This document shows, in pieces, positions 985 through 42,358 of a DNA stretch of 44,696 nt. Positions within the stretch are counted from its first letter, which is position 1. The number at the start of each line of letters is the position of its first letter. The position numbers and the translations under genes are program-made. Under the pieces are notes generated by a model that saw only the letters and a program-made list of their open reading frames with translations, was not told the DNA's origin and made no database searches. Source of the DNA: a virus; the IMG/VR virus record IMGVR_UViG_3300012000_000037, positions 1-44,696 of that record. One strand, 5' to 3'.

Positions 985-2997
985 TCACGATAGGTCCTCG
1001 ACCATGGCAACCTTGATACCTTTGCTACCTGGCCTGCCTTGCTTTGCAGTCAAGTCCAGTTTCAAAGGCTTTTTGCGTTTGGAAGCCCAATTTACAGTGT
1101 AAGAACCTTCTCCGAAGTAAACAATCTTCGAACCTTCTGGGAGAGCAAGCTTACCTTTGCTCGTTGTTTTCACAAGGTCTGACCCGCACAGTACCATGGC
1201 TCTTAGCTCTTCGTTGTTTTCAAACACAACAAGGTACTTCAGCTCTAGAATCTCAGAGTCTTTCTTTGCCAATAGAATCGGGCAGTAGTTTGTTGACACA
1301 GGACCTTTGTAATTTGGGGCCACCTTTTTCAGGAACCCTGCTTCGTTTAAGAGCACCAGTTTGTCCTTGGATTCCAGGACCAGAGCTCCCCGAGGCCCTT
1401 TGGCTTGTTCCACAAGCCCTTTCTTCACATCCACCTTCAGGAACCTAGGCTTAGGGGCCGCTGCCACCCTCCTGGTTGGGGAGCCGGGTGTATAGGTCCC
1501 TCCGTGCGAAGGGGGCTCCACGAGGGGGCTCCTACGAGCCTCTCCGTGCCTCTTTCCGAGCTCGGTCAGCTCCTGGGTCATGTACGAGCTACGGCAGGTG
1601 GTGCCTTCTGCCTCGTCGCTTGCCAATTTCTCAAGCTCTTTGATTCTCGTTTGAAGTTCATTGTCCTCCAGGATCAAATCCTTTTCGTCGAGGTTGGTCA
1701 ACTGCCGGAGTCTCATGTCAAGGATTGACTCCGCCTGGTCATCCGTGAACATGAACGGCTTTGACATAAGGGAGCTCTTAGCTTGAGCTTTATCCTTGGA
1801 CTCCCGAATTTTCCCAATCACTAAGTCCATCATTCCGATGGCCTTCAGTAAACCTTGGACGATCGAAAGACGAGCTTCCTTGGTGCTGAGTTCTTTCACA
1901 AACTTGGCTTGAAGCCGGTTCAGCCTCCAATGAACCCATTTCTGTACAATCTCTACAGGGGAAAGCTCAACTGGCTTATTGCCATCAATGACTAATGTTT
2001 TAGCTGAGAACTTGAGTTCGAGATCGGTGAAGGAGTAGAGCTGGTTTTTGAGGGTGTCAGCATTGATCCCTGCTTTCGCTACCACTTGAACACGGTCGCC
2101 AGATAGATCGGAGAGATCATTAACCTCGGCTACTCCTTCAATCCTGCCTTTTTCAAGTTCAGCCTTGATTTGCTCTCCGATTTTCTCCGGGTTTGTTCCC
2201 GGTGGCAGGTTTGTAAAAGTCAAGCACGGCCTTTCTTTTCCTTTGCCATGCCGAACCACAGAGGTTTCCAACTTTGCCATGCACCGAATGCTTCCGGAGC
2301 CTGTTTCTTTGTACTGCTTGAGTTGATCATCCTCAATGATCTGGGTGCCAGTGGGGAAGTCAGGAATGAGGATATCTCGTGCTTTGCTTAGGTTGTCTTT
2401 GTAAGCTTTCTCCGAAGCAGTGTGTTTACAAAGGAGCTTGGTAGCTTCGACGATAGACCTGAGATTGTGAGGGGCAATCTTACAGGCATAACCAACTCCA
2501 ATTCCCTCCTGGCCGTTGAGAAGAACCAAGGGGAACTTGACATTCAACTCCATAGGTTCTTGCAGGGAACCATCGTAGTTTGGAACTGTCTCCCAAGTGT
2601 CTGAATCGTCAAGCACACCCTCCCAAAGTAAGGGAGAGGACTTGACTTCCGTATACCTGGCAGCAGCACATTGAGAAGTTGAGTCTCCGAAGTTCCCGTG
2701 GCCGTTAATCAATGGGTAGTTGTTGTTCCAAGGTGCTGCCAGAGTGACAATGGCACCGTAAGCTGAACCGTGAGGGCTGTACTTACCCAGCACTTCTCCG
2801 TCAAGCCTGGCACTTTTCATGAAGCGTCCGTCAGGCTTCAAGTTCAGCATCTTAATTGCTGTGAAGATTCTCCTTGCAATTGGCTTGCATCCATCCGTGT
2901 ACCGAGGAATAGCCCTGCCAACTATGACACTCAAGGAGTAGGCTAGGTAGTCTTCCTTTACAAGGGATGTAAGGTTGGTTGGGATGTAGTTACTCAT
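985..2997 (-). CDS. Type II DNA topoisomerase, A subunit (GyrA/ParC/T4 gp52-like)
   Basis: This is the DNA breakage-reunion subunit of a type IIA topoisomerase, which relieves supercoils and decatenates phage DNA. Visible hallmarks are the N-terminal DYLAYSLSVIVGRAIP region, the winged-helix stretch with LGKYSPHGSAYGA, and the catalytic tyrosine Y115 in AAARYTEV. The GyrA-like ELGKRHGEARR stretch follows near residue 485. At 670 aa it is longer than T4 gp52 (about 440 aa) and ends in an extra C-terminal domain after a Pro/Gly/Ser-rich linker (about residues 495-525). No ATPase (GyrB-like) subunit is seen in this window. The start overlaps the preceding gene by 4 bases. Confidence 0.95.
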   Translation of the reverse strand: MSNYIPTNLTSLVKEDYLAYSLSVIVGRAIPRYTDGCKPIARRIFTAIKMLNLKPDGRFMKSARLDGEVLGKYSPHGSAYGAIVTLAAPWNNNYPLINGHGNFGDSTSQCAAARYTEVKSSPLLWEGVLDDSDTWETVPNYDGSLQEPMELNVKFPLVLLNGQEGIGVGYACKIAPHNLRSIVEATKLLCKHTASEKAYKDNLSKARDILIPDFPTGTQIIEDDQLKQYKETGSGSIRCMAKLETSVVRHGKGKERPCLTFTNLPPGTNPEKIGEQIKAELEKGRIEGVAEVNDLSDLSGDRVQVVAKAGINADTLKNQLYSFTDLELKFSAKTLVIDGNKPVELSPVEIVQKWVHWRLNRLQAKFVKELSTKEARLSIVQGLLKAIGMMDLVIGKIRESKDKAQAKSSLMSKPFMFTDDQAESILDMRLRQLTNLDEKDLILEDNELQTRIKELEKLASDEAEGTTCRSSYMTQELTELGKRHGEARRSPLVEPPSHGGTYTPGSPTRRVAAAPKPRFLKVDVKKGLVEQAKGPRGALVLESKDKLVLLNEAGFLKKVAPNYKGPVSTNYCPILLAKKDSEILELKYLVVFENNEELRAMVLCGSDLVKTTSKGKLALPEGSKIVYFGEGSYTVNWASKRKKPLKLDLTAKQGRPGSKGIKVAMVEDLS

Positions 2998-3574: not shown

Positions 3575-3597
3575 CAGTATGAAACCTTTCACACCTT

Positions 3598-3640
3598 ATT
3601 ATAGGTCGTTTGGAGGGTCCGGTAAAGTTCGGTTAACCGA
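3598..3640 (-). promoter_or_regulatory. Palindrome promoter 1 (upstream of HigA-like gene)
   Basis: On the minus strand: palindrome TCGGTTAACCGAA, then CTTTAC (-35, 3622-3627), an 18-bp spacer and TATAAT (-10, 3598-3603). The dyad overlaps the stop codon of the upstream ATPase gene. It is one of 12 copies in this window. Confidence 0.8.
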
Positions 3641-4525: not shown

Positions 4526-4644
4526 AGATGCCTGTAATGTTTGAGGGAGGAATAGACGAAATTGAAGACAATGACCATAAACACTCTCCTTAACGCTAGC
4601 AGTGCCAGTATGATTAGCAGTGTTTTCGTAGCTAGATTCTCCAT
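4522..4644 (-). CDS. Small single-pass membrane protein, 40 aa
   Basis: The ATG at 4644 gives 40 residues with a hydrophobic segment (TLLIILALLALRRVFMVIVF). Its stop overlaps the next start by 4 bases. A longer reading would run into the upstream phosphoesterase, so I take the short form. There is no clear Shine-Dalgarno. Function unknown. Confidence 0.55.
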   Translation of the reverse strand: MENLATKTLLIILALLALRRVFMVIVFNFVYSSLKHYRHL

Positions 4645-4675
4645 TTTCGGGTTTGCGTGGTATGGGAAAGGCAGG

Positions 4676-5299
4676 TTAGATGTCAAGGTCAAGGTGTGAA
4701 AGTTCACCCAACCCCATGAAGTCAACCCCTTTATGCACTATGTGGTAATCGATGTGCCAGTGGCCATGTATCCAAAGATCTGGCTTATGAATCTCCAGCA
4801 TGTTGTCGAAGCATTTGCGGGTTGCACAAGGAATGTCTAGCATTCCAGGGTACACCCTGGAAATTACTGATTCTGGGCACTCGTGACTGATTACGACTCT
4901 GGGTTTGGCCAATTCGTAAACCTCGATGATTTTGCAAAGCTGAGAGTAGCTCAGTTCCTCATCGTGCCACCAATCGTAGCCTTCAGTGCGCAGGTGTTTG
5001 TCTATGGAGAGTGCCCCGCCGACACAGAAAATGTCATCACGCCCAAGTGCCGATTCCCCGTCAGCAACATAATAAGGATGCCCCTTGCATTCTTCAAGAT
5101 TGTCATGGTTGCCCCTTATAAAAAAGTGCTCCCCTTGAGCCATGGCATCAGTGGGGGGACCTTCGAGCTTTTCTCCAGTGCGATAGTTTCGAAAACCAAC
5201 TCCGAAATCTCCAACCTGAAGGGAGCGGTCGCACTCTTTAATTAGGGCTTTGTAGCGAGACCATTTGCCATGTACATCGCCGATGAATCTGATTTCCAT
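4676..5299 (-). CDS. Calcineurin-like metallophosphoesterase
   Basis: Metal-binding motifs of the calcineurin-like fold appear in order: GDVHG (about residue 7), GDFGVG (about 30), GNHDN (about 79), a central His in SHECPE, and HGHWH near the C-terminus. These enzymes hydrolyse phosphomono- or diesters with a dinuclear metal centre. The ATG lies exactly six bases after the -10 of a palindrome promoter, so the mRNA is predicted to be leaderless. It is one of four such phosphatases in the window. Confidence 0.9.
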   Translation of the reverse strand: MEIRFIGDVHGKWSRYKALIKECDRSLQVGDFGVGFRNYRTGEKLEGPPTDAMAQGEHFFIRGNHDNLEECKGHPYYVADGESALGRDDIFCVGGALSIDKHLRTEGYDWWHDEELSYSQLCKIIEVYELAKPRVVISHECPESVISRVYPGMLDIPCATRKCFDNMLEIHKPDLWIHGHWHIDYHIVHKGVDFMGLGELSHLDLDI

Positions 5300-5305
5300 G
5301 GTTTA

Positions 5306-5349
5306 ATTATACTTCATTTCACCTTTCAAGTAAAGCTCGGATTACCGAA
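5306..5349 (-). promoter_or_regulatory. Palindrome promoter 2 (leaderless, phosphoesterase)
   Basis: On the minus strand: TTCGGTAATCCGAG, CTTTAC (-35, 5330-5335), 18-bp spacer, TATAAT (-10, 5306-5311), six bases, then ATG at 5299. The upstream gene's stop codon (5350-5352) abuts the dyad. Confidence 0.85.
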
Positions 5350-11855: not shown

Positions 11856-13284
11856 ACAGCACCCATTCCGGCGATGGAGCGAACTTGTGAAGCTTCACTT
11901 CTCCTGTGACAGTGTTTTTGTAAGGAGAGGAAAGTTGCCAGTTCGAGTTTGAACACCGGGTCAGTCCCCTCTCAGCTTTGAAAGCCTTCCACTCATCAGA
12001 TAGCCACATCTGAGGCCAAACCCCTCTCCAATCCGAGTGCTCCTTTCCCTTTTCTCTTAGATTTTGAGAGGAGTGTCTGATGAAGTCTCGACGACAAGTT
12101 TCGCATTCCAGGTCATCGAGGTATACCATGTTTTCCCTGGAGTAGAAAACCATCGAAACCCTTTCAGCATCCTCAGAGTCTTTGACCATTGGGGTGTTCC
12201 CATGAATCAAATTCTGGGTGTCCGCAATGATGAAGTCCCCGTCTCTCACGTCAAAGGCGAGTTTCAACTCAGGAAATACTAAGTAGTGCCCTGTGTAGGA
12301 ACCTTGAGAGATGACTGTGAGAACAGCCATGGCCTCTTTGAGGTTGTTTTTGTCTACGTGGTAAGCGGTTTGAAAGTTGAAATTGAGGGTTATGCTTGTG
12401 AAAGCTGTGTCAAATAAGCTATATAAGGGTTCCTTGACTTTGCTAATTACTGATCGTACCTTGCTCCAGGTCTCAGGAAACAAGCTCTTAAACCCTTGGT
12501 CAACTGCAATGTAAACGCTCTTAAACTTTTCGAAATCTTCAAAGTTTCTTTGAGTCGTCCCGCTCAATCTCCCATAGGGAAACCTTGCTCCCCTGTCTAT
12601 AGCTCCAAGCACATTGCTGTAACAATGATTGAAGTTCAGCTGAGAGCTGATGAAATTTGAGTGAACTTTGCTGGCTTCTTCTTTTTTGCTGAGGGATTTG
12701 GACCAGACTTCTTCCAGCCAAGGTTCAAACCAACTCCACAAAACAGTTCTTTTTTCTTCCTCCCCAACAAAAGCACCACTCTTGGCTCTCTTGTCTATCT
12801 CTGCCAAAGCATTCTTGATATGGGGAAATTCTTTTTTGATGTGCTTGGACTTAAGGGTTTTCACAGTCAGCTCATCAGAGCTGGACAAAACTTGCCTTGC
12901 ACTTTCAAGGTTAGAGATTGACCCTGAGATCGCTCCTTTGAAGAAATCCACTTGACCGCGAGTGAGCCTGGCTTCTCGGCGAGTGGTGAGCTCAGTACCT
13001 GCAACGACCCCTCTCTGGGTCCCATAAACCTCACGGGAAGCCCTCCTAAAGAAGGGCCAGGCTTCCCCCGAAGAGCCCTCTGAGAGGGCTGGTATGAGGC
13101 TCCTACGGAACGATAGGACCTTGGCCTCAGCCACATAGACGTCGCAATCGTCATTGATCACTCTGTCAAAGTCCCCCTCTTGAGGGAATTTGCCGATGTA
13201 GAGGCTTCTGGGACAATCGTGGAGAGAGTCCAGTTTTACAACTTCAGGACTCTCCCTACTCATAAGGTCTTCAGAAACCGTCAT
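11848..13284 (-). CDS. TET/JBP-like Fe(II)/2-oxoglutarate dioxygenase, copy 2
   Basis: 478 aa from the ATG at 13284, which overlaps the upstream paralogue's stop. The C-terminal half has the double-stranded beta-helix signature: H309-x-D311 (AYHVDKNN), LVFPELKLAFDVRDGDF, H361 (NLIHGNT) and an Arg (R375, AERVSMVFY) for 2-oxoglutarate. The HxDxxN form and GHYLVFPEL stretch match TET/JBP-type base oxidases, which hydroxylate 5-methylcytosine or thymine in DNA. A CETC pair and a Trp-rich tail follow. Its 5' third has a GC-rich patch absent from the paralogue. Confidence 0.85.
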   Translation of the reverse strand: MTVSEDLMSRESPEVVKLDSLHDCPRSLYIGKFPQEGDFDRVINDDCDVYVAEAKVLSFRRSLIPALSEGSSGEAWPFFRRASREVYGTQRGVVAGTELTTRREARLTRGQVDFFKGAISGSISNLESARQVLSSSDELTVKTLKSKHIKKEFPHIKNALAEIDKRAKSGAFVGEEEKRTVLWSWFEPWLEEVWSKSLSKKEEASKVHSNFISSQLNFNHCYSNVLGAIDRGARFPYGRLSGTTQRNFEDFEKFKSVYIAVDQGFKSLFPETWSKVRSVISKVKEPLYSLFDTAFTSITLNFNFQTAYHVDKNNLKEAMAVLTVISQGSYTGHYLVFPELKLAFDVRDGDFIIADTQNLIHGNTPMVKDSEDAERVSMVFYSRENMVYLDDLECETCRRDFIRHSSQNLREKGKEHSDWRGVWPQMWLSDEWKAFKAERGLTRCSNSNWQLSSPYKNTVTGEVKLHKFAPSPEWVLYD

Positions 13285-14771
13285 TTGGTGCTTTCCTCCC
13301 ACACCTCCAAGTGCTCCCAGTCTTCCCCAGGTGAGTGAGTTGATAGCTTAACCTCTCCTGAGGTTTTGTTTCGGAAAGGTTTGGTACCCCAGTAGTTACC
13401 GTTGCCGCAGTGGGTCATTCCTTTTTGTTCGCGATAGTCAAGCCATTCCTGGGAGGTCCATTGGCCACTCCACACTCCGTTCCAAGTGCTATGGCCAGTG
13501 CCCTTTTCTTGCAGGTTTTTACCACAGTATTGCATAAAGTCTTTCCTGCACTCTTCGCAGTCCAAACCTTCAAGCAGAGTCATTCTCTCTCGAGAATAGA
13601 AAACCAGGGACACTCTTTCAGCATCAGGGGATTTGGGCTTCATTGCCGTATTGCCATGGATCAACCCTTGATTGTCTCCGGCCAGGAAATCCCCGTCTCG
13701 AAGATCAAAAGCGCACCTTAGCTCAGGGAACACGAGGTAATGTCCCTCATAGTCTCCTTGCGTCATTGCTGAAAGAACAGCCACGCCACCCTCGCAATTA
13801 TTAGCGTCATAGTGCATTGCGCACCGGAAGTTCCAATTAAGTGTCAGAGCTGTGAATACGGTCCCAAACAAGTTGTAGTGTGGATCTTGCACTTTTGAGA
13901 ACTTCTCATGAAGTACAGTCCACCTATCACCCAAAGTTTCCAGCAAAACATCGGAAGCAGTTTGATACACATCTCTGTGTCTCACAAACTCTTCATAGTT
14001 TTTCAAAGTTGTGCCTGTGAGCCTACCATAAGGGTTTCTAGCTCCCCTGTCAAAAGCACCGAGAACATTGCTGTAACACTTGTTGGATCGCAGTTGTTTG
14101 CTGATGTACCTGTTGTCGGCCCACTTAGCCTCCTTAACCCTGTCCTCAGCAGAGTCCCATTTCTCTTTCAGCCAAAGCTCAAACCACTCTCCAAGAATCT
14201 TTCCTTTCTCTTTCTTCAGCTCTTCTTTTCTGTCCTCAGGGGTCTTCTTCTTGCGGATTTCAGCCTCAAGGGGTGCGAGCCTTTCTGAGATGCTCGGGAA
14301 GTCTTTCTTAATTTCGGTGACACGGATGATGTATTTGCTCGGGTCAGGGGACATCCCAACGATATCCATGGCTTCTTCCACAGAGGAAACATTGTCGGCA
14401 AAAGCCTTCTTGAAGAAGTTAAGAATGCCGTTTGACACTCGGCCTTCGAGATCTGTGGTCAATTCTTTGCCCGCTACGAGACCCCTTTGGTCCGAGTAAA
14501 GGTCTCTTGATGCCCAACGCAGATACTCCCAAGTTTTGGGATCTCCTTTTGCACCTTCCTTGAGTTTAGGGAAAACGGACTTCCGGAAGGCTAGAACCTT
14601 CACCCCTGCAACATAGACGTCACAGTCTTCTTGTACAAGAGTGTCGTAATGGGTTTCATCCGCAAAGTACCCGATCAATTCCTTCGGGTCGCAGGGGTAC
14701 AGAGCGTCAAGCTCAATTCTCTTAGCTTGAGGTCTGGACCTGAGCTCTTCAATTACTTGTGTTTGTGTCAT
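13281..14771 (-). CDS. TET/JBP-like Fe(II)/2-oxoglutarate dioxygenase, copy 1
   Basis: 496 aa, a clear tandem paralogue of the next gene, with matching segments along the whole length. Iron ligands are H320-x-D322 (MHYDANN) and H372 (LIHGNT); R386 (AERVSLVFY) should bind 2-oxoglutarate. CEEC (405-408) may form part of a zinc site. The N-terminal 300 residues have no named domain but include KCYSNVLGAFDRGARNPYGRL, conserved between copies and probably contacting DNA. It is the first gene of the operon. The family oxidises 5-methylpyrimidines in DNA; the substrate here is unproven. Confidence 0.87.
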   Translation of the reverse strand: MTQTQVIEELRSRPQAKRIELDALYPCDPKELIGYFADETHYDTLVQEDCDVYVAGVKVLAFRKSVFPKLKEGAKGDPKTWEYLRWASRDLYSDQRGLVAGKELTTDLEGRVSNGILNFFKKAFADNVSSVEEAMDIVGMSPDPSKYIIRVTEIKKDFPSISERLAPLEAEIRKKKTPEDRKEELKKEKGKILGEWFELWLKEKWDSAEDRVKEAKWADNRYISKQLRSNKCYSNVLGAFDRGARNPYGRLTGTTLKNYEEFVRHRDVYQTASDVLLETLGDRWTVLHEKFSKVQDPHYNLFGTVFTALTLNWNFRCAMHYDANNCEGGVAVLSAMTQGDYEGHYLVFPELRCAFDLRDGDFLAGDNQGLIHGNTAMKPKSPDAERVSLVFYSRERMTLLEGLDCEECRKDFMQYCGKNLQEKGTGHSTWNGVWSGQWTSQEWLDYREQKGMTHCGNGNYWGTKPFRNKTSGEVKLSTHSPGEDWEHLEVWEESTK

Positions 14772-15519: not shown

Positions 15520-15525
15520 ACTATT

Positions 15526-15570
15526 ATCATACTCCACTTGGGCAAGGAAGTAAAGGTCGGGTAACCGAAC
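15526..15570 (-). promoter_or_regulatory. Palindrome promoter 3 (leaderless, SprT-like)
   Basis: On the minus strand: GTTCGGTTACCCGAC, CTTTAC (15550-15555), 18-bp spacer, TATGAT (15526-15531), then six bases to the ATG at 15519. Confidence 0.85.
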
Positions 15571-18344: not shown

Positions 18345-18350
18345 AACTCT

Positions 18351-18395
18351 ATTTTAGTTCAAGCGGAGGTGGGAGTAAAGGTCGGTTTACCGAAC
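18351..18395 (-). promoter_or_regulatory. Palindrome promoter 4 (leaderless, basic protein)
   Basis: On the minus strand: GTTCGGTAAACCGAC, CTTTAC (18375-18380), 18-bp spacer, TAAAAT (18351-18356), six bases, ATG at 18344. Confidence 0.82.
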
Positions 18396-21109: not shown

Positions 21110-21115
21110 AGTTTA

Positions 21116-21158
21116 ATTATAGACCGGTTTCGTTGAAAAGGCAAGTTCGGATTACCGA
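21116..21158 (-). promoter_or_regulatory. Palindrome promoter 5 (leaderless, polynucleotide kinase)
   Basis: On the minus strand: TCGGTAATCCGAA, variant -35 CTTGCC (21140-21145), 18-bp spacer, TATAAT (21116-21121), six bases, ATG at 21109. The dyad overlaps the last codons of the upstream gene. Confidence 0.8.
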
Positions 21159-22553: not shown

Positions 22554-22626
22554 CGACCTCTGTTGGATTCGAACCAACGACCGACTGCTTAGAAGGCAGT
22601 TGCTCTATCCTCTGAGCTAAGAGGCC
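22554..22626 (-). tRNA. tRNA-Arg (TCT)
   Basis: 73 bases. Acceptor stem GGCCTCT/AGAGGTC (one G-U), D arm TAGCTCAGAGGATAGAGC, anticodon stem ACTGC/GCAGT with loop CTTCTAA (anticodon TCT), and a perfect T arm GTTGG-TTCGAAT-CCAAC. No CCA is encoded. It reads AGA/AGG codons, consistent with many AGG codons in the phage genes. Confidence 0.93.
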
Positions 22627-22636
22627 TCTCTGTCAC

Positions 22637-22679
22637 AGTATAGGGGGCACTGCAACGAGGTAAAGTTCGGGATACCGCC
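22637..22679 (-). promoter_or_regulatory. Palindrome promoter 6 (tRNA operon)
   Basis: On the minus strand: GGCGGTATCCCGAA, CTTTAC (22660-22665), a 17-bp spacer and TATACT (22637-22642). The predicted start is a few bases before the mature 5' end of tRNA-Arg, so this copy drives a stable RNA. Confidence 0.78.
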
Positions 22680-24286: not shown

Positions 24287-24318
24287 TGTTGTTTTGAAGG
24301 AGTTGTTTCTATGTAAGT

Positions 24319-24362
24319 AGTATAGCTGGGACATGGGAGGAGGTAAAGATCGGTTTACCGCC
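24319..24362 (-). promoter_or_regulatory. Palindrome promoter 7 (DUF932 gene)
   Basis: On the minus strand: GGCGGTAAACCGAT, CTTTAC (24343-24348), 18-bp spacer, TATACT (24319-24324). Confidence 0.8.
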
Positions 24363-25440: not shown

Positions 25441-25446
25441 GTATTT

Positions 25447-25490
25447 ATGATAGCGCGATTTAAGGGTCCGGTAAAGTTCGGTTAACCGAA
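25447..25490 (-). promoter_or_regulatory. Palindrome promoter 8 (leaderless, phosphatase)
   Basis: On the minus strand: the perfect 14-bp palindrome TTCGGTTAACCGAA, CTTTAC (25471-25476), 18-bp spacer, TATCAT (25447-25452), six bases, ATG at 25440. The macro-domain gene's stop abuts the dyad. Confidence 0.87.
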
Positions 25491-26836: not shown

Positions 26837-27895
26837 TCACTTACCCGTTTTACAGAGCCATACATTGCTGATGGCTTTGAAAGAAAAGTCGCTGTTCAGG
26901 GACTTGAATACCAGTCCTTCCCGCCTGGCTTGAGGGTTCATGGAAGGACCATCTGCAAAGGCTAGGAGAGCCTCGAGAGACCCGAGCTCAGAGCTGACGC
27001 ACAGGTCCCCGTTAAGTACGGGCACGTGCTCCAGGGAGGCTCCTAGAGACCTCAGAGCCCTCACCTGCTCTTGGCGCTCTTCGGGCGAGAGATACCTTTG
27101 CTCATCGATATTGAAAATATCAAAGAGGTACAGACGTTGGCCTTGAATCTTTTCTTGATTCCCCTGAATCCCTTCACCAATGAGCTCAAACTGGAGAGCC
27201 AAATTGTCTCCTGTTTCGTTGTATAGCTGGAGTAGCGCTTCAATCACCTTTTGGGAACGGGCAGTAGACCAGAAGGTGTTGTTTTCCGTTTCCTCCAGAT
27301 CCAGATTGCGACTGCACACCCCAAGGTTTCCGTCTTTGCAGTACACAGTGCAAGAGGATCCGTCAAGCTTCAAGGTGACTTCGTACCTTTCCCCGTAACG
27401 GTCGCGAAAGATCTCTTCAACAAGATTTTGGCAGCGTTCCTGGTCGGTTTTCGGTACGAAAGAAGGGAAGTTACCTTTGACCACACCTGCAAGTTGAGGC
27501 GGGATGTAAGGTTCCCACTTCTGAATCCCAAGTTGTTGGGTTAGTTCAAAACCGATAGGAGAACCAGCGAGAGGCCAGAGTCCTTTCTCATCGAGGATTG
27601 TTGTAGGCAGGAGGAGACCCTGACTCACCTGACCGCGGAACTTCATGGTCTTGAGACGTTCCCCTTTCACACCGTTGTACTCTCTTGGGTCTTGCCCTTT
27701 GCTAAGGAAAGGAGCGAGATCATGCGGAACCCAACTATCAATCTCAAGATAGATGGCAAGATCCCCAACCTGATACTCACCTTTTTTGACAACAACTGGC
27801 CATCCGCCTCCAACGATAGCGCACTCAATCGAGTCCGCATCTGGAATTGGTCGCACCTCTGTGATAGTTTTGATCGAAGCTAACTTTCTTGTCAT
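26837..27895 (-). CDS. ATP-dependent RNA ligase (DRB0094/Rnl family)
   Basis: 352 aa. The adenylation site is K176-L-D-G (TLKLDGSSCTVY), with CSRNLDLEE (motif III-like), LALQFELIGEG (motif IIIa/IV) and EGLVFKSLN (motif IV) and LCKTG (motif V-like) following. The N-terminal 130 residues form the OB-like domain typical of the DRB0094 group (PDADSIECAIVGGWPVVVKK-like start). It can reseal broken RNA, for example tRNA cut by anticodon nucleases. A GC-rich patch lies in its C-terminal third. Confidence 0.87.
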   Translation of the reverse strand: MTRKLASIKTITEVRPIPDADSIECAIVGGGWPVVVKKGEYQVGDLAIYLEIDSWVPHDLAPFLSKGQDPREYNGVKGERLKTMKFRGQVSQGLLLPTTILDEKGLWPLAGSPIGFELTQQLGIQKWEPYIPPQLAGVVKGNFPSFVPKTDQERCQNLVEEIFRDRYGERYEVTLKLDGSSCTVYCKDGNLGVCSRNLDLEETENNTFWSTARSQKVIEALLQLYNETGDNLALQFELIGEGIQGNQEKIQGQRLYLFDIFNIDEQRYLSPEERQEQVRALRSLGASLEHVPVLNGDLCVSSELGSLEALLAFADGPSMNPQARREGLVFKSLNSDFSFKAISNVWLCKTGK

Positions 27896-31536: not shown

Positions 31537-31574
31537 GGGAGAGCGGAATTGCTTCGGGAAAAGGCTACACTCTA

Positions 31575-31618
31575 ATCATAGTTGCTCAGTCTAAGGTAGT
31601 AAAGTTCGGGTTACCGAA
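31575..31618 (-). promoter_or_regulatory. Palindrome promoter 9
   Basis: On the minus strand: TTCGGTAACCCGAA, CTTTAC (31599-31604), 18-bp spacer, TATGAT (31575-31580). The stop codon of the upstream nucleotidyltransferase abuts the dyad. Confidence 0.83.
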
Positions 31619-33948: not shown

Positions 33949-33972
33949 CTTAAGGCGCTTTATTACAAGTTT

Positions 33973-34015
33973 ATTATAGCTGAATCTGTACGCCAAGGGA
34001 AGTAAGGGTAACCGA
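33973..34015 (-). promoter_or_regulatory. Palindrome promoter 10 (degenerate copy)
   Basis: TATAAT (33973-33978) on the minus strand, with GTTCGGTTACCC upstream, but about five bases of the second half-site and -35 are missing compared with the other copies. It is probably decayed or weakly active. Confidence 0.55.
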
Positions 34016-37373: not shown

Positions 37374-37477
37374 AAGTCCGGAGATTTAGGGGCAGGGTTG
37401 AGAGTGCCGCGGAGCTCGTCTCCCGAGAAGGTTCCCAGGCCCCAGGCCGCGATGGCGTGGTCGATGTGGTTGCTCAT
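37370..37477 (-). CDS. Small GC-rich protein, 35 aa
   Basis: SNHIDHAIAAWGLGTFSGDEL, then a Pro-containing tail. It is coupled by overlaps on both sides and lies in a GC-rich patch unlike the surroundings, which suggests recent transfer. Confidence 0.5.
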   Translation of the reverse strand: MSNHIDHAIAAWGLGTFSGDELRGTLNPAPKSPDL

Positions 37478-37716
37478 TGCTGGCCCTCCAGCTCGGCGGC
37501 GATGTCGAGGATTTGGCGGCGCAATGAGTGCCTGGCAACACCAGTTTCCGACGTGCGATTCCACGGCTTCTGCTCCGGAGCCACCTGATCCGCCAGAGCG
37601 CGGGTGAAGGCGGCCAGCGCATCTCCGTAATCCTCGAACACGCCGACACGTTCTGCCACGTCGTTGAACGCCTGCCAGACCGCCTGCGCGGTGATAGAGA
37701 GGGTGTGGTTAGTCAT
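37474..37716 (-). CDS. IAAELE-family protein, 80 aa
   Basis: LSITAQAVWQAFNDVAERVG, then ALAAFTRALADQVAP and a C-terminal ILDIAAELEGQQ follow the family pattern LSPAAQAVWxA...ALAAALRALADQ...IAAELE seen also at 40032-40271 and 43722-43919. GC-rich codon use resembles the previous small gene. Function unknown. Confidence 0.72.
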   Translation of the reverse strand: MTNHTLSITAQAVWQAFNDVAERVGVFEDYGDALAAFTRALADQVAPEQKPWNRTSETGVARHSLRRQILDIAAELEGQQ

Positions 37717-37945
37717 CGTCGGGGTTCTCTTTATTTGTTGGTTCAGGTGAGACATAAAAGTAGCCCATTGCCTCTAATAGCGTGTAAGCAAAGAGCTCAG
37801 CCTTGGAGAAAGTGTCAAGACCGGCACTTACCAGAAAAGCTTTCTTCTTAACCTCTTGCTCAACTTCCTGCAAGAAATGAACATAGAAATAGGTGTTATC
37901 AACTTTAATGATCTTGGGCGGTGTTTCTTTGGAAAGTTCAGTCAT
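37709..37945 (-). CDS. Hypothetical protein, 78 aa
   Basis: From the ATG at 37945: PPKIIKVDNTYFYVHFLQEVEQEVKKKAFL, then helices and an acidic tail. Not recognised. A GTG two codons earlier is possible. Confidence 0.65.
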   Translation of the reverse strand: MTELSKETPPKIIKVDNTYFYVHFLQEVEQEVKKKAFLVSAGLDTFSKAELFAYTLLEAMGYFYVSPEPTNKENPDDD

Positions 37946-37947
37946 TA

Positions 37948-38130
37948 TCACCCTACAACTCCTCGGCGATCAGGCGAATCTAGGAGGAATTCACAGCGCG
38001 GACACCAAGAAAGTCGTAACCAAGCTGATCCGTGGGGCTTTCCCGCTTCCCACTGACTGATGGTACAGCCTGTGTTGTCCAGGGCGTCTAGAATTGCCTG
38101 AGCCTGAAGGGAAAGGTTAAAGTTGCTCAT
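37948..38130 (-). pseudogene. Frame-disrupted IAAELE-family gene
   Basis: The N-terminus (SNFNLSLQAQAILDALDNTG) matches the IAAELE family, but the annotated frame ends with an unrelated CPRCEFLLDSPDRR stretch. Another frame of the same DNA reads TDQLGYDFLGVRAVNSS, a stop, then IRLIAEEL, the expected family ending. So a frameshift and a nonsense change seem to have broken the gene. It may still be translated as a shorter protein. Confidence 0.5.
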
Positions 38131-38201
38131 TTTCTTATGCAGGTGCTTTTGCTGATATCTCTGTAATCATTCTTAATCCAGAGAGCAAGGGGAGTTTTCA
38201 T
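38127..38201 (-). CDS. Possible 24-aa peptide
   Basis: KTPLALWIKNDYRDISKSTC in frame between two overlapping junctions (ATGA on both sides). Very short; coding status uncertain. Confidence 0.35.
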   Translation of the reverse strand: MKTPLALWIKNDYRDISKSTCIRK

Positions 38202-38647
38202 GAGCCTTCGGGGAGAACTTCAACGATGTCTATTACTGACGGAGAATCCCCCTTGTAATAACGGCCATTGGGGTAATAGTTTTCACCGTTGTCCAAGAAA
38301 ACGTAATCTGGGGATAAACCAAAACTGTCGATGGTTCTAATTGACCCATCCTTAAGCCTCACCTCGCGCCCAATCCATTTGGGGTCTCTCGTGAATCGAA
38401 CTTCCCCTGCTCTTTCGTCATCGCTCTCCTCCTGATTTCCACCATTGACTTCTTTTTCTTCCTCGATGGCTCGCTGATTGTCGAGAATTGCCTGCAAGGC
38501 CTGAACCAAAGCAGGAACCTCATCAAGAAAAATCTGAGGACAAAGCTCTACATATCTGCTGTCGGTATCTTGCCCCTTGACGTGGATGAGCAATGGTGCC
38601 CGTTGGTTATTGCACTTGGGCAGTTGGAGGCTAGTGATTTCGTGCAT
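38198..38647 (-). CDS. Hypothetical protein with WIGREVRLKDG domain, 149 aa
   Basis: The last 65 residues (DPKWIGREVRLKDGSIRTIDSF, then NYYPNGRYYKGD) match the C-terminal domain of the gene at 40337-40831 (NPKWIGRKVELMNGDI...DGRYYYDGGDHELDIV). The N-terminal part differs, with a coiled-coil linker (QRAIEEEKEVNGGNQEES). A small all-beta binding domain is likely; function unknown. Confidence 0.72.
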   Translation of the reverse strand: MHEITSLQLPKCNNQRAPLLIHVKGQDTDSRYVELCPQIFLDEVPALVQALQAILDNQRAIEEEKEVNGGNQEESDDERAGEVRFTRDPKWIGREVRLKDGSIRTIDSFGLSPDYVFLDNGENYYPNGRYYKGDSPSVIDIVEVLPEGS

Positions 38648-38979: not shown

Positions 38980-39327
38980 TTATTCTGGCAGAGAGTTTAA
39001 TGCTTCACGGATGTTTCTGCCCAGGGTAGTGAAATCTTCTATATTGAATTTGTTCGTCATCCACATCGTAAAAGCCTTGTTAAGAGATTCTATCCCTTGC
39101 TTCTTTAGGTTTGGCGGCTTGGGACGCCTGGCTGCTTGAAGGTTTTCACTTGTTACAGGGTAAGAAGTTCCACGCTGGAGATCTGAAAGTGCCTCACAGC
39201 ACGCCGCCAGCTCCTGGTCGGCTCCCCATTGGGCAGCGCGATTGCAAAGTTTTTGTGTAGACAGGCTTTCGCTGGCCCATTGCTGCACCAGATCGGGTGG
39301 TGGGGCGATTGGTTTTTGGTTAGTCAT
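38980..39327 (-). CDS. AQWGA-family protein, 115 aa
   Basis: Family pattern: PIAPPPDLVQQW, NRAAQWGADQELAACCEALSDL, then RRPKPPNLKKQGIESL and IREALNSL. First member of a tandem set of three that overlap at their junctions. I associate this pattern with Synechococcus phages. Function unknown. Confidence 0.78.
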   Translation of the reverse strand: MTNQKPIAPPPDLVQQWASESLSTQKLCNRAAQWGADQELAACCEALSDLQRGTSYPVTSENLQAARRPKPPNLKKQGIESLNKAFTMWMTNKFNIEDFTTLGRNIREALNSLPE

Positions 39328-39698
39328 TCGGGAATCTCCTCCAGTGCACGGCGGATGTTATCAACATGGGTTTGAAATACCTCGAAACCGCTGGACCCCT
39401 CAAACTCTCCAAGCGTGAAATCTCCGATTTCTTTCAACCCTCTCAATGCTTGTTCTTTTAAGCTCGGTCGGCGGTGATTACGAAGGTCTTTGTGGAAGTC
39501 TGGATCGCACAGTTCATTGTCGTCCAGAAACTCACAGCACGCTTCTAGTTCCTGGTTGGCACCCCACTGGGCGGCTTGGGTTGCAACTTCTAGTTGATCC
39601 CAAGTTACAGGCCCCTTCATCGCGCCTCCAGCCCTATCCTCTATCCACTTCCTAACCAGCTCTTCTGACGGCAGGGTAATTGGATGTTGTTCAGTCAT
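39324..39698 (-). CDS. AQWGA-family protein, 124 aa
   Basis: PITLPSEELVRKWIED, AAQWGANQELEACCEFLDDNEL, RRPSLKEQALRGL and IRRALEEIPE. Overlaps the next member by 4 bases. The paired Cys (ACCEFL) is shared with the neighbouring 38980 copy. Confidence 0.78.
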   Translation of the reverse strand: MTEQHPITLPSEELVRKWIEDRAGGAMKGPVTWDQLEVATQAAQWGANQELEACCEFLDDNELCDPDFHKDLRNHRRPSLKEQALRGLKEIGDFTLGEFEGSSGFEVFQTHVDNIRRALEEIPE

Positions 39699-40011
39699 TG
39701 ATTAGCTCCAATGCGAGTCGGATAATTGCTCCACGTTCAGGAGTAATGTCACCGCCAGCTACGGCCGCAGCAACTTCTGATAGAGCCTCCTCTTTCTGGC
39801 TCAGCTTCTTGGGGCGGCGTAATCGGAGAAGGTCCTTACGTGCTACGGGTAACCCAAGATCAAGCAGGAACTCAGCACATTCCGCCAGTTCTTGATCCGC
39901 TCCCCATTGTGCGGCTTGGGTAGCAATAGTTAAGCCTCGGTCTAGTGGTGAATTAGAATGCCACTGCTCTACCAGCTCCGGAGATGGGGTGATAGGATGT
40001 TTATCAGTCAT
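39691..40011 (-). CDS. AQWGA-family protein, 106 aa
   Basis: PITPSPELVEQWHSNS, AAQWGADQELAECAEFLLDLG, RRPKKLSQKEEALSEVAAAVAGGDITPERGAIIRLALELIND. The tail pattern GGDITPERGAIIRLAL also appears in the 36592-37257 protein. Together they mark a gene family expanded by tandem duplication. Confidence 0.78.
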   Translation of the reverse strand: MTDKHPITPSPELVEQWHSNSPLDRGLTIATQAAQWGADQELAECAEFLLDLGLPVARKDLLRLRRPKKLSQKEEALSEVAAAVAGGDITPERGAIIRLALELIND

Positions 40012-40031: not shown

Positions 40032-40271
40032 TTAAAGAATCACCCCTTCTAGTTCGGCGGCGATGGAAAGTAGTTCGGCTCGGATCATCTCAACCGTTGA
40101 CAAACAACAGTCTGGTCCCTCAGGCATGCTGGCGGGAGTTACCCGATCTGCAACAGCTCGAATCGCGGTACCGGCAAAGCCTCGTGCTACCAACCGGAAC
40201 TGAGAATCTGGGTCTCCACAACCGCAAGCTTCCAAAACAGCTTCGGAGGATGGGGAAAGAGGTTCGATCAT
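40032..40271 (-). CDS. IAAELE-family protein with MIEPLSPSSE start, 79 aa
   Basis: MIEPLSPSSEAVLEACG, then AGTAIRAVADRVTP and LLSIAAELEGVIL. The first ten residues are identical to those of the unrelated gene at 41071-41532, and the upstream promoter is duplicated too. The rest follows the IAAELE family. It begins 16 bases after the predicted transcription start. Confidence 0.72.
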   Translation of the reverse strand: MIEPLSPSSEAVLEACGCGDPDSQFRLVARGFAGTAIRAVADRVTPASMPEGPDCCLSTVEMIRAELLSIAAELEGVIL

Positions 40272-40336
40272 TGGGTTTGTTCTCTACCTTTATATCTTAG
40301 CTCTTCTGAGCTGAGGTGTAAAGTTCGGGTTACCGA
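40243..40336 (-). repeat. Duplicated promoter plus start-codon cassette, copy 1
   Basis: About 94 bases covering the palindrome promoter, leader and first ten codons are nearly identical to 41504-41597. The downstream genes are unrelated, so the cassette has been copied or kept by recombination. Confidence 0.8.
40294..40336 (-). promoter_or_regulatory. Palindrome promoter 11
   Basis: On the minus strand: TCGGTAACCCGAA, CTTTAC (40318-40323), 18-bp spacer, TAAGAT (40294-40299), about 16 bases of leader to the ATG at 40271. Confidence 0.83.
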
Positions 40337-40831
40337 TCAGGCTCCTTTGGCCAAGAGGCGCACAATGTCCAATTCGTGGTCTCCGCCATCGTAATAATAA
40401 CGACCATCTTTGTGGTACCATGTGCCATCTTCTAGGTGGATTGTCTCGTCATCAGCTTCCCCGCTCCGATTAGTGTCAACAGCGTCAATAACTAAAATAT
40501 CACCATTCATAAGCTCAACTTTCCTGCCAATCCATTTGGGATTGTTGTCAAAATGAAACGGGCCATATGATTCAGCATCATCTGGATCAGCAAGTTTCGC
40601 AGGTTCTAGAGGGGCGCTGGCTTGCCCTTGGTCTCCCAGGGCGATCGCCATTGCAAGCCTAAAGCTTAGAGGATCAATGCTAAGGCTAGACAATGCTGCA
40701 GCAAGATTATCTTCACGAATAGGCACAAGTTCATTCAGCACTTGCTCTGCAAGCTCCCTGCATTCTTCTTCGTAACTATATCGAGTCAGAACTTTGCCAA
40801 TGCGAATGAGAATTTCTCTTGAAAGGGCCAT
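40337..40831 (-). CDS. Hypothetical protein with WIGRKVELMNG domain, 164 aa
   Basis: N-terminal helical half (ALSREILIRIGKVLTRYSYEEECREL), C-terminal domain shared with 38198-38647 (PKWIGRKVELMNGDILVIDAVD, then HKDGRYYYDGGDHELDIVRLL). A HIP1 octamer lies inside it. Its stop abuts palindrome promoter 11. Function unknown. Confidence 0.72.
   Translation of the reverse strand: MALSREILIRIGKVLTRYSYEEECRELAEQVLNELVPIREDNLAAALSSLSIDPLSFRLAMAIALGDQGQASAPLEPAKLADPDDAESYGPFHFDNNPKWIGRKVELMNGDILVIDAVDTNRSGEADDETIHLEDGTWYHKDGRYYYDGGDHELDIVRLLAKGA
40641..40648. repeat. HIP1 octamer (GCGATCGC)
   Basis: Second HIP1 site in the window, in the 40337-40831 gene, within GGCGATCGCC. Confidence 0.6.
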
Positions 40832-40862
40832 TGCTAAATAAGAACAGTAGACGATAGGAGGA

Positions 40863-41084
40863 TCACTTGTCTAGGCAAGTGGTGGATCCGCACCAGGCTT
40901 GAGCAAGTACCGGCTTGATGCCATTGCTGAAATCACTTTTAGCGGCAATGCCGGCCACCTTGAGAACCAAGGAAACCTGAACAATCATCATTAGCACAAC
41001 CAAAGCGGAAGTGCCACAGAAAATGAAAGGAAAAACTTTCTTGAAAAGATCGAAAAACGAGAATTGTGTTTTAGGACGAAGCAT
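40863..41084 (-). CDS. Small membrane protein, 73 aa
   Basis: A hydrophobic stretch of about 30 residues (VFPFIFCGTSALVVLMMIVQVSLVL) followed by a soluble tail with two Cys (WCGSTTCLDK). Overlaps the next upstream gene by 14 bases. Function unknown. Confidence 0.65.
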   Translation of the reverse strand: MLRPKTQFSFFDLFKKVFPFIFCGTSALVVLMMIVQVSLVLKVAGIAAKSDFSNGIKPVLAQAWCGSTTCLDK

Positions 41085-41532
41085 TAGATTGAGAACGGGT
41101 GATTAGAGAAATTACTGGCTGTAAGTTAGCGTTGATTTCATCAAGTTTTTCAACGACTTTACTCACTTCTTGCGGAGAACACACGCCCAACAACTGATCC
41201 TTAAGCTTACACATTACTGCTAGCCCTTGCTTGTATTCGGCCAGACCCACTGAAAAATGTTTCCAAGCCTCAAAATTGGCAATGGCCTCAGGGGATGCTG
41301 GTGTTGCATACCCTGGGCTTCGCGGTTGCCAAATATCACTGGAAGTGCCATAAATCTTCCCATTCTTAAGGAATCGAACCTCGCCTTTATTGTCATAGGC
41401 AGTGAATTGCGTTTTAGTCACTTTGCTAACTGTTAGCAATCGTTGATCCCAATGGTAAGAGTTGTTCAAAATCACTTGATCGCCAACGGCAATGTCATCA
41501 AATTCAGAAGACGGGGAAAGAGGTTCTATCAT
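41071..41532 (-). CDS. Hypothetical protein with MIEPLSPSSE start, 153 aa
   Basis: Shares its first ten residues and promoter with the 40032-40271 gene, then diverges. GDQVILNNSYHWDQRLLTVSKV looks like a small beta domain, followed by a helical C-terminal half (FEAWKHFSVGLAEYKQGLAVM). Function unknown. Confidence 0.72.
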   Translation of the reverse strand: MIEPLSPSSEFDDIAVGDQVILNNSYHWDQRLLTVSKVTKTQFTAYDNKGEVRFLKNGKIYGTSSDIWQPRSPGYATPASPEAIANFEAWKHFSVGLAEYKQGLAVMCKLKDQLLGVCSPQEVSKVVEKLDEINANLQPVISLITRSQSNASS

Positions 41533-41597
41533 TAGGTCTGTTCTCTACCCTTATATCATAGCCCTTCTGAACCGAGGTGTAAAGTTCGGGTTACCGA
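41504..41597 (-). repeat. Duplicated promoter plus start-codon cassette, copy 2
   Basis: Matches 40243-40336 base for base over most of its length, with a few substitutions and no length change. Confidence 0.8.
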
Positions 41598-41598
41598 A
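41555..41598 (-). promoter_or_regulatory. Palindrome promoter 12
   Basis: On the minus strand: TTCGGTAACCCGAA, CTTTAC (41579-41584), 18-bp spacer, TATGAT (41555-41560). The dyad overlaps the stop codon of the WDGH gene. Confidence 0.85.
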
Positions 41599-42358
41599 CC
41601 AAGAGTGGGGTAAGAAGCGGCAGAGCCCAATGTGGGAGCCAAGCTTGTGCTTCCAAAGGATGGCAGAGCCCGTCTGAATCTGTAAATCCAACGTCTTCGA
41701 GACGCATGAATCTCCAGCTGCGTGGCATTCCGTATGAAGTTTTCGATCGCTCGAGACCCCAGCACCACTCTCCTGTACCTCTCCTCGGATGCGGGCAGCA
41801 ATCCTCTGCTTTCGGTAATCGCTCGGTGACGAGAATTGGGGACAATGTTACAGAGGTTGTGTGACCCGCTAAAGACATTCCGTGGTCAACCCCCAATTGG
41901 AACACAGCCTTAAGTGCAAATTCCCTGTGTAAAGCATCATTGCATCCTTTGGAATGTTGCGCTTTGCTCTGTGAAAATGCTTTCGCGTAGCAGACTCCAA
42001 TGTCCCATACACTGGGGGCCTCAGAACCAGCCCATCTTTGCAGACGCTGTGTCACATCAGTTGCAGTGTGGCCATCCCAAGGCTTACCCCGATCAAGTTC
42101 TAGGGCTCCGGTTGCTTGGGCAACAGGATAGAGGCAAATGGGCAGGTGATAAGTAACACTCTCTTCCTCTGAAAGATCGCAGCCGATAATGAACCATTCT
42201 CCACTGCCAAAGCAAAGTTCTCCGTCATTGTGCCGACGGCTGAACCAACAGCGGCCAGGAAGAGCACGCATCAGAGCCAGGCAAAGGGAATGTCGGTGTT
42301 CGTACAGCTCTGCAAAAGTGTGGTAGCCGTCGCTAATCTGAGAAGTATCTGTGGTCAT
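41591..42358 (-). CDS. WDGH domain protein with DUF551-like C-terminus, 255 aa
   Basis: Residues 10-110 match the WDGH domain (SDGYHTFAELYEHRHSL, SRRHNDGELCFG, ITYHLP-type VTYHLPICLYPVAQA, KPWDGHTATDV). After a spacer (HREFALKAVFQLG), the tail ILVTERLPKAEDCCPHPRRGTGEWCWG and QAWLPHWALPLL resembles DUF551-type phage domains. So two phage domains are fused. Function unknown. First gene of its transcription unit on this side of the gap. Confidence 0.75.
   Translation of the reverse strand: MTTDTSQISDGYHTFAELYEHRHSLCLALMRALPGRCWFSRRHNDGELCFGSGEWFIIGCDLSEEESVTYHLPICLYPVAQATGALELDRGKPWDGHTATDVTQRLQRWAGSEAPSVWDIGVCYAKAFSQSKAQHSKGCNDALHREFALKAVFQLGVDHGMSLAGHTTSVTLSPILVTERLPKAEDCCPHPRRGTGEWCWGLERSKTSYGMPRSWRFMRLEDVGFTDSDGLCHPLEAQAWLPHWALPLLTPLLVR

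Follow-up and report, generated by a model that had tools for sequence, protein, structure and literature searches.

A promoter and the opening ten codons of a small gene occur together, in two near-identical copies, on the minus strand of a viral DNA of 44,696 nt (IMG/VR record IMGVR_UViG_3300012000_000037, the whole of which is called the window here), whose source is a freshwater-type cyanophage. We consider it probable, with good confidence, that the repeated block arose by duplication of a phage promoter cassette, the first ten codons of its gene being copied with it. The duplication of promoter and start is real and well supported, and it constitutes a partly new example of phages shuffling expression starts, not a new kind of system.

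The two copies, A and B (Table 1), are identical without gaps at 84 of 95 nt, and a BLAST search of the window with one of them returned the other at E = 4.9e-31 and no third copy of the whole block. The initial annotation had described this near-identical pair one base shorter; the additional base lies at the coding end, so that the end of the block coincides exactly with codon 10. Each copy thus extends from the first base of the palindrome TCGGTAACCCGA to the last base of codon 10, and the flanks beyond are unrelated. Between these limits the palindrome is followed by a -35-like CTTTAC, 18 nt, a -10 box (TATGAT or TAAGAT), a gap of 22 nt, the ATG and the coding sequence for MIEPLSPSSE. After codon 10 the two open reading frames, of 79 and 153 aa, diverge completely, as the annotation had also noted. 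Since the record is a metagenomic contig, an assembly artefact or a chance repeat had to be considered. We regard either as extremely unlikely: the copies differ at 11 positions, both genes are intact within a coherent one-strand gene order, and the E value argues against chance.

Of these 11 differences, four fall within the 30 coding bases, all at third positions and all synonymous (P about 0.003 by simulation). This comparison of synonymous and nonsynonymous changes had been proposed in the annotation, and its outcome suggests that the MIEPLSPSSE peptide has been kept, but four is a small number of events, and selection acting on a single copy alone could be enough.

Comparison with relatives shows the ten codons to be native to the 79-aa gene, as its start, and foreign to the 153-aa gene. 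The former belongs to a family found across cyanophage contigs (LSP family), with the start M..LSPAAQAVLDA, the middle motif AALRAAADQ and the end IAAELEG: it carries the conserved start, an AALRAAADQ-like middle and the IAAELEG end in a protein within 60-100 aa. Its close relatives on three contigs (L145, L146 and L147) read MAKPLSPAAQAVLAACGCPDPDSPFR and the like, a resemblance to MIEPLSPSSE that makes the start native to this gene. The family appears to be phage-specific as far as searched; a host origin was considered and dropped, GTDB genomes having given only one MAG contig. The 153-aa body gave no match to the LSP family HMM and lacks both the middle and the end motifs. Its weak matches to PF24203 (0.012) and phrog_9662 (0.005) both run from residue 13 onward, which identifies its start as the borrowed part. 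The gene had only a non-significant match in phage records (E 0.4), and phrog_9662 had no match in 20 related records. Among IMG/VR viral contigs no relative of the gene was found to show its original start or which copy came first, and this we count against the preferred explanation. A structure model built from the single sequence (mean pLDDT 46) was set aside.

Table 1. Coordinates of the repeated block, the neighbouring genes, the family promoters of the window and the HNH fusions on other contigs (window positions unless a contig is named).
Feature	Position	Strand	Basis or remark
Copy A: promoter-start block of the 79-aa gene	40242..40336	minus	84/95 identical to copy B; native start of the gene family
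Copy B: block before and fused to the 153-aa gene	41503..41597	minus	E 4.9e-31; 4 coding differences from copy A synonymous
79-aa gene P0001, LSPAAQAVLDA...IAAELEG family	40032..40271	minus	IMG/VR relatives up to about 60% identity
153-aa gene P0002: borrowed MIEPLSPSSE and unrelated body, weak phage ProQ-C-like domain	41071..41532	minus	weak domain matches
73-aa ORF with hydrophobic stretch, between copies A and B	40863..41084	minus	translation
164-aa gene P0006, stop codon abuts copy A palindrome	40337..40831	minus	paralogue of 38198-38647
255-aa WDGH-domain gene P0007, stop codon inside copy B palindrome	41591..42358	minus	PF25311, 6.1e-25
Weaker family match, 6 mismatches, TATAAT at 17 nt	33971..34015	minus	motif scan
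Family promoter	31573..31617	minus	motif scan
Family promoter, ATG 6 nt after -10 box, predicted leaderless	25445..25489	minus	motif scan
Family promoter	24317..24361	minus	motif scan
Family promoter, upstream of tRNA-Arg gene (22554-22626)	22635..22678	minus	motif scan
Family promoter, ATG 6 nt after -10 box, predicted leaderless	21114..21158	minus	motif scan
Family promoter, ATG 6 nt after -10 box, predicted leaderless	18349..18393	minus	motif scan
Family promoter, ATG 6 nt after -10 box, predicted leaderless	15524..15568	minus	motif scan
Family promoter, ATG 6 nt after -10 box, predicted leaderless	5304..5348	minus	motif scan
Family promoter, exact palindrome TCGGTTAACCGA	3596..3640	minus	motif scan
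HNH_3 ORF fused to first 9-10 codons of an LSP-family gene	L260, about 233-745	minus	
HNH_3 ORF fused to first 9-10 codons of an LSP-family gene	L293, about 4574-5083	plus	

The gene array around the block holds further small genes. More diverged LSP-family genes or fragments lie at 37474-37755 and 37948-38130 (minus), and 38980-40011 (minus) holds three small genes in tandem that belong to a PITPPPELVxxW family (phrog_32006); the latter family is also present in the Synechococcus phages S-CBS2, S-H1 and S-RIP1. Elsewhere in the window, a 70% identical repeat (12533-12652 and 13987-14106) is shared between adjacent genes of 484 and 496 aa. The 496-aa gene matched a Tet/JBP-type oxygenase domain (PF12851), a possible sign of DNA base modification. 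A phage DNA gyrase/topoisomerase subunit A, 47% identical to its counterpart in Synechococcus phage S-CBWM1, is encoded at 985-2997 (minus).

The promoter half of the block fits a pattern that we define here as CGGN4CCG-NN-CTTTAC-N18-TANNNT and whose description was not found in the literature searched. About 12 sites of this family were present in the window, all on the minus strand and none on the other, and first-order Markov resamples of the window (5 runs) contained zero sites at the quality of the better real ones. An RNA family scan gave two tRNAs only. The same architecture was observed at about 12 sites in S-CBWM1, as well as in the related genomes G005, G006 and G007 and in many IMG/VR contigs; the strand is almost always the same within a record. 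A reversed control pattern gave 0 matches in S-CBWM1, these three genomes and others. Promoter activity and transcription starts of the family are predicted.

Among 61 non-redundant promoters, 17 had an ATG exactly 6 nt after the -10 box, where 0.95 were expected (P = 5.5e-17), and a second mode was seen at 20-24 nt, to which copies A and B belong (22 nt). Promoters with the ATG at 6 nt also occur in G005, G006, G007 and other contigs; two S-CBWM1 orthologues have their start codon 22-24 nt away. Sigma-70 promoters usually initiate transcription 6-7 nt downstream of the -10 box, and on this ground the ATG-at-6-nt group is predicted to give leaderless mRNAs. The strong enrichment of such starts raises the question of whether the first codons were kept by selection for translation, mRNAs with short or no leaders needing a good 5′ coding start in this phage. 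This we find unlikely: copies A and B are not leaderless, their predicted leader measuring about 15 nt, and four synonymous changes were tolerated within the ten codons.

Duplication of this promoter as a unit was further observed in relatives. In at least four other phages a promoter block is duplicated before unrelated genes, the copies stopping in the leader: within-genome pairs were found in S-CBWM1 (32324/35650 and 38759/40200), in G005 (15716/15986) and, one each, on contigs L113 and L138. The shared part extends from the palindrome through the promoter into the leader, one S-CBWM1 pair beginning some 30 nt further upstream, and some of the copies have tRNA-like sequence downstream. The palindrome is the upstream edge in most of the duplicated pairs. 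Its recurrence there in several independent pairs agrees with recombination among promoter copies already present, a step that we infer. The extension over ten codons is a single case for this promoter, and we count this too against the preferred explanation.

According to that explanation, the phage would use about a dozen promoters of one type on one strand, made of palindrome, CTTTAC, 18 nt and -10 box, with the start codon at or near the predicted transcription start. The promoter and start of the 79-aa LSP-family gene would then have been copied by recombination onto the body of a second small gene, that of 153 aa, which yields the observed in-frame fusion, now provided with its own predicted promoter. 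The proximity of these promoters to start codons, which they overlap or adjoin, would explain why a gene start was copied with them, and one edge of the recombination would lie at the palindrome, presumably because it is common to all of the promoters. The event may have been kept because the second gene gained a working promoter and a start codon.

The block itself was absent elsewhere, both from IMG/VR (searched with a 24-base pattern across leader and start) and from phage records (megablast). The annotation had proposed to look for it before other genes of related phages, and the answer was divided: the promoter type is duplicated and the family start is fused elsewhere, but the exact block was found only here. 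A block unique to this genome whose ten codons evolve without constraint had been named as speaking against the cassette. As far as searched the block is indeed unique. Its ten codons, however, do not give the appearance of evolving freely, and the family start takes part in other fusions. Of the plug-in cassette created by recombination, we retain the placing of promoter and start on a second gene, with a promoter type duplicated as a unit in relatives, but not the decapeptide as a free-standing tag.

Such a tag, for targeting or stability, had been suggested for the shared N-terminus. In its general form, this idea holds that selection on both proteins maintains the ten residues as a functional N-terminal tag, be it for targeting, stability or protein contact; the four synonymous coding differences agree with it, as does the presence of the family start on several unrelated bodies (HNH and the fusions of L209 and L008, below). 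However, the peptide is simply the ordinary N-terminus of one widespread phage family, whose members vary it (MTD, MAK or MTN before LSPAAQ); nothing in it obviously suggests a signal sequence or a transmembrane segment, and a targeting feature was not found. We also measured synonymous codon diversity relative to background at conserved residues. The value for the family start (0.68) was not below those for the middle (0.43) and end (0.60) motifs, and a specially constrained tag was rejected, the synonymous sites of the start being no more constrained than those of the other two motifs. The tag is therefore very unlikely in our estimate.

Other fusions of the family start, besides chance matches, came to light when 248 ORFs with LSP-type starts were surveyed; some loci were chosen by their start DNA, so the survey gives no fusion frequency. 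On contigs L260 and L293 an HNH_3 endonuclease (PF13392, 5.5e-8) follows in frame after MTEPLSPAAQ and MTDLSPAAQ. The junction lies directly after LSPAAQ, the same position as the window junction after LSPSSE, and the HNH stop is followed by a second start, MTSLSPQAQ, from which the remainder of a family gene continues; the two contigs carry different paralogues. Two more fusions join the start to other bodies: on L209, MTDLSPAAQAV is followed by PKQCKD, and on L008, MTDLSPQVQAVYDSM is followed by RAATTIV.

The window shows the same order as L260 and L293: a start, a foreign segment (the 153-aa body, the 73-aa ORF and the 164-aa gene), a start and the rest of the 79-aa gene. We therefore kept as a tentative possibility, itself rather unlikely, that the start of LSP-family genes is a hotspot of recombination or insertion, that this segment entered the 79-aa gene between its codons 10 and 11, and that the 95-base block is a duplicated end restoring the split gene, as in homing by HNH endonucleases. 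This reading differs from the preferred one in the order of events and leads to the same end product, and our confidences in the two overlap. The likeness to free-standing phage HNH homing endonucleases is in the HNH_3 domain at the same junction position of the same family, in two different paralogues, with a start re-supplied afterwards, and in the matching geometry of the window. Against it, Pfam and PHROGs scans of P0002 and P0006 revealed no endonuclease in these two genes of the insert, and the repeat extends far upstream into the promoter, unlike in the HNH cases. Nor was an empty site found: the contig of the near-identical relative G007 ends near window position 27,660, short of the locus. 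By our own estimate the chance of a shared junction codon alone is roughly 1 in 10 to 1 in 15.

A bolder version, which we hold to be unlikely, would have HNH endonucleases cut within the first ten codons of LSP-family genes and so open a recombination hotspot, by which unrelated genes would acquire new starts time and again and, in the case of this phage, a promoter as well. The putative target of the HNH protein of L260 and L293 in such a model is CCCCCGCCGCGCAG-GCGGTG. If true, this would be a system shuffling gene starts without fusion of whole domains.

Several known phage systems resemble the duplicated cassette in part. In the PeSLs of T4-type phages, mobile regulatory cassettes that the present unit resembles in function, a promoter is reportedly paired with a stem-loop terminator. 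These early-promoter units are repeated through the genome and, according to the mention of them in PMC4503421, were reported to mediate gene shuffling between related phages (Arbiol et al. 2010; Comeau et al. 2014). A repeated promoter cassette before unrelated genes likewise occurs in these cyanophages, but here the unit consists of an upstream palindrome and the promoter and, in the window, also ten codons. In the freshwater cyanophage Mic1, motifs that contain a promoter and measure about 55-60 nt are repeated 8-10 times (PMC7156551). They are similarly repeated promoter motifs in a cyanophage, but differ in sequence, are clustered in one region and are reported to be non-coding. Finally, the SAS/ESAS elements of cluster K mycobacteriophages are repeats with inverted-repeat elements just before start codons, mostly in one orientation (PMC3203893). 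Repeats and inverted repeats are thus placed by gene starts in both, although SAS is a 13-bp ribosome-binding-site-like repeat in phages of another host group and has no shared coding part.

The locus gives a base-pair view of how phage genes of unassigned function gain expression, a promoter and start being copied as one unit onto another body. The promoter family defined here is common to S-CBWM1 and many uncultured cyanophages and comprises a predicted leaderless class, and the LSP gene start is repeatedly reused in fusions, an HNH endonuclease among them. Both the promoter family and the reused start provide concrete predictions for 5′-end mapping in S-CBWM1-infected Synechococcus.
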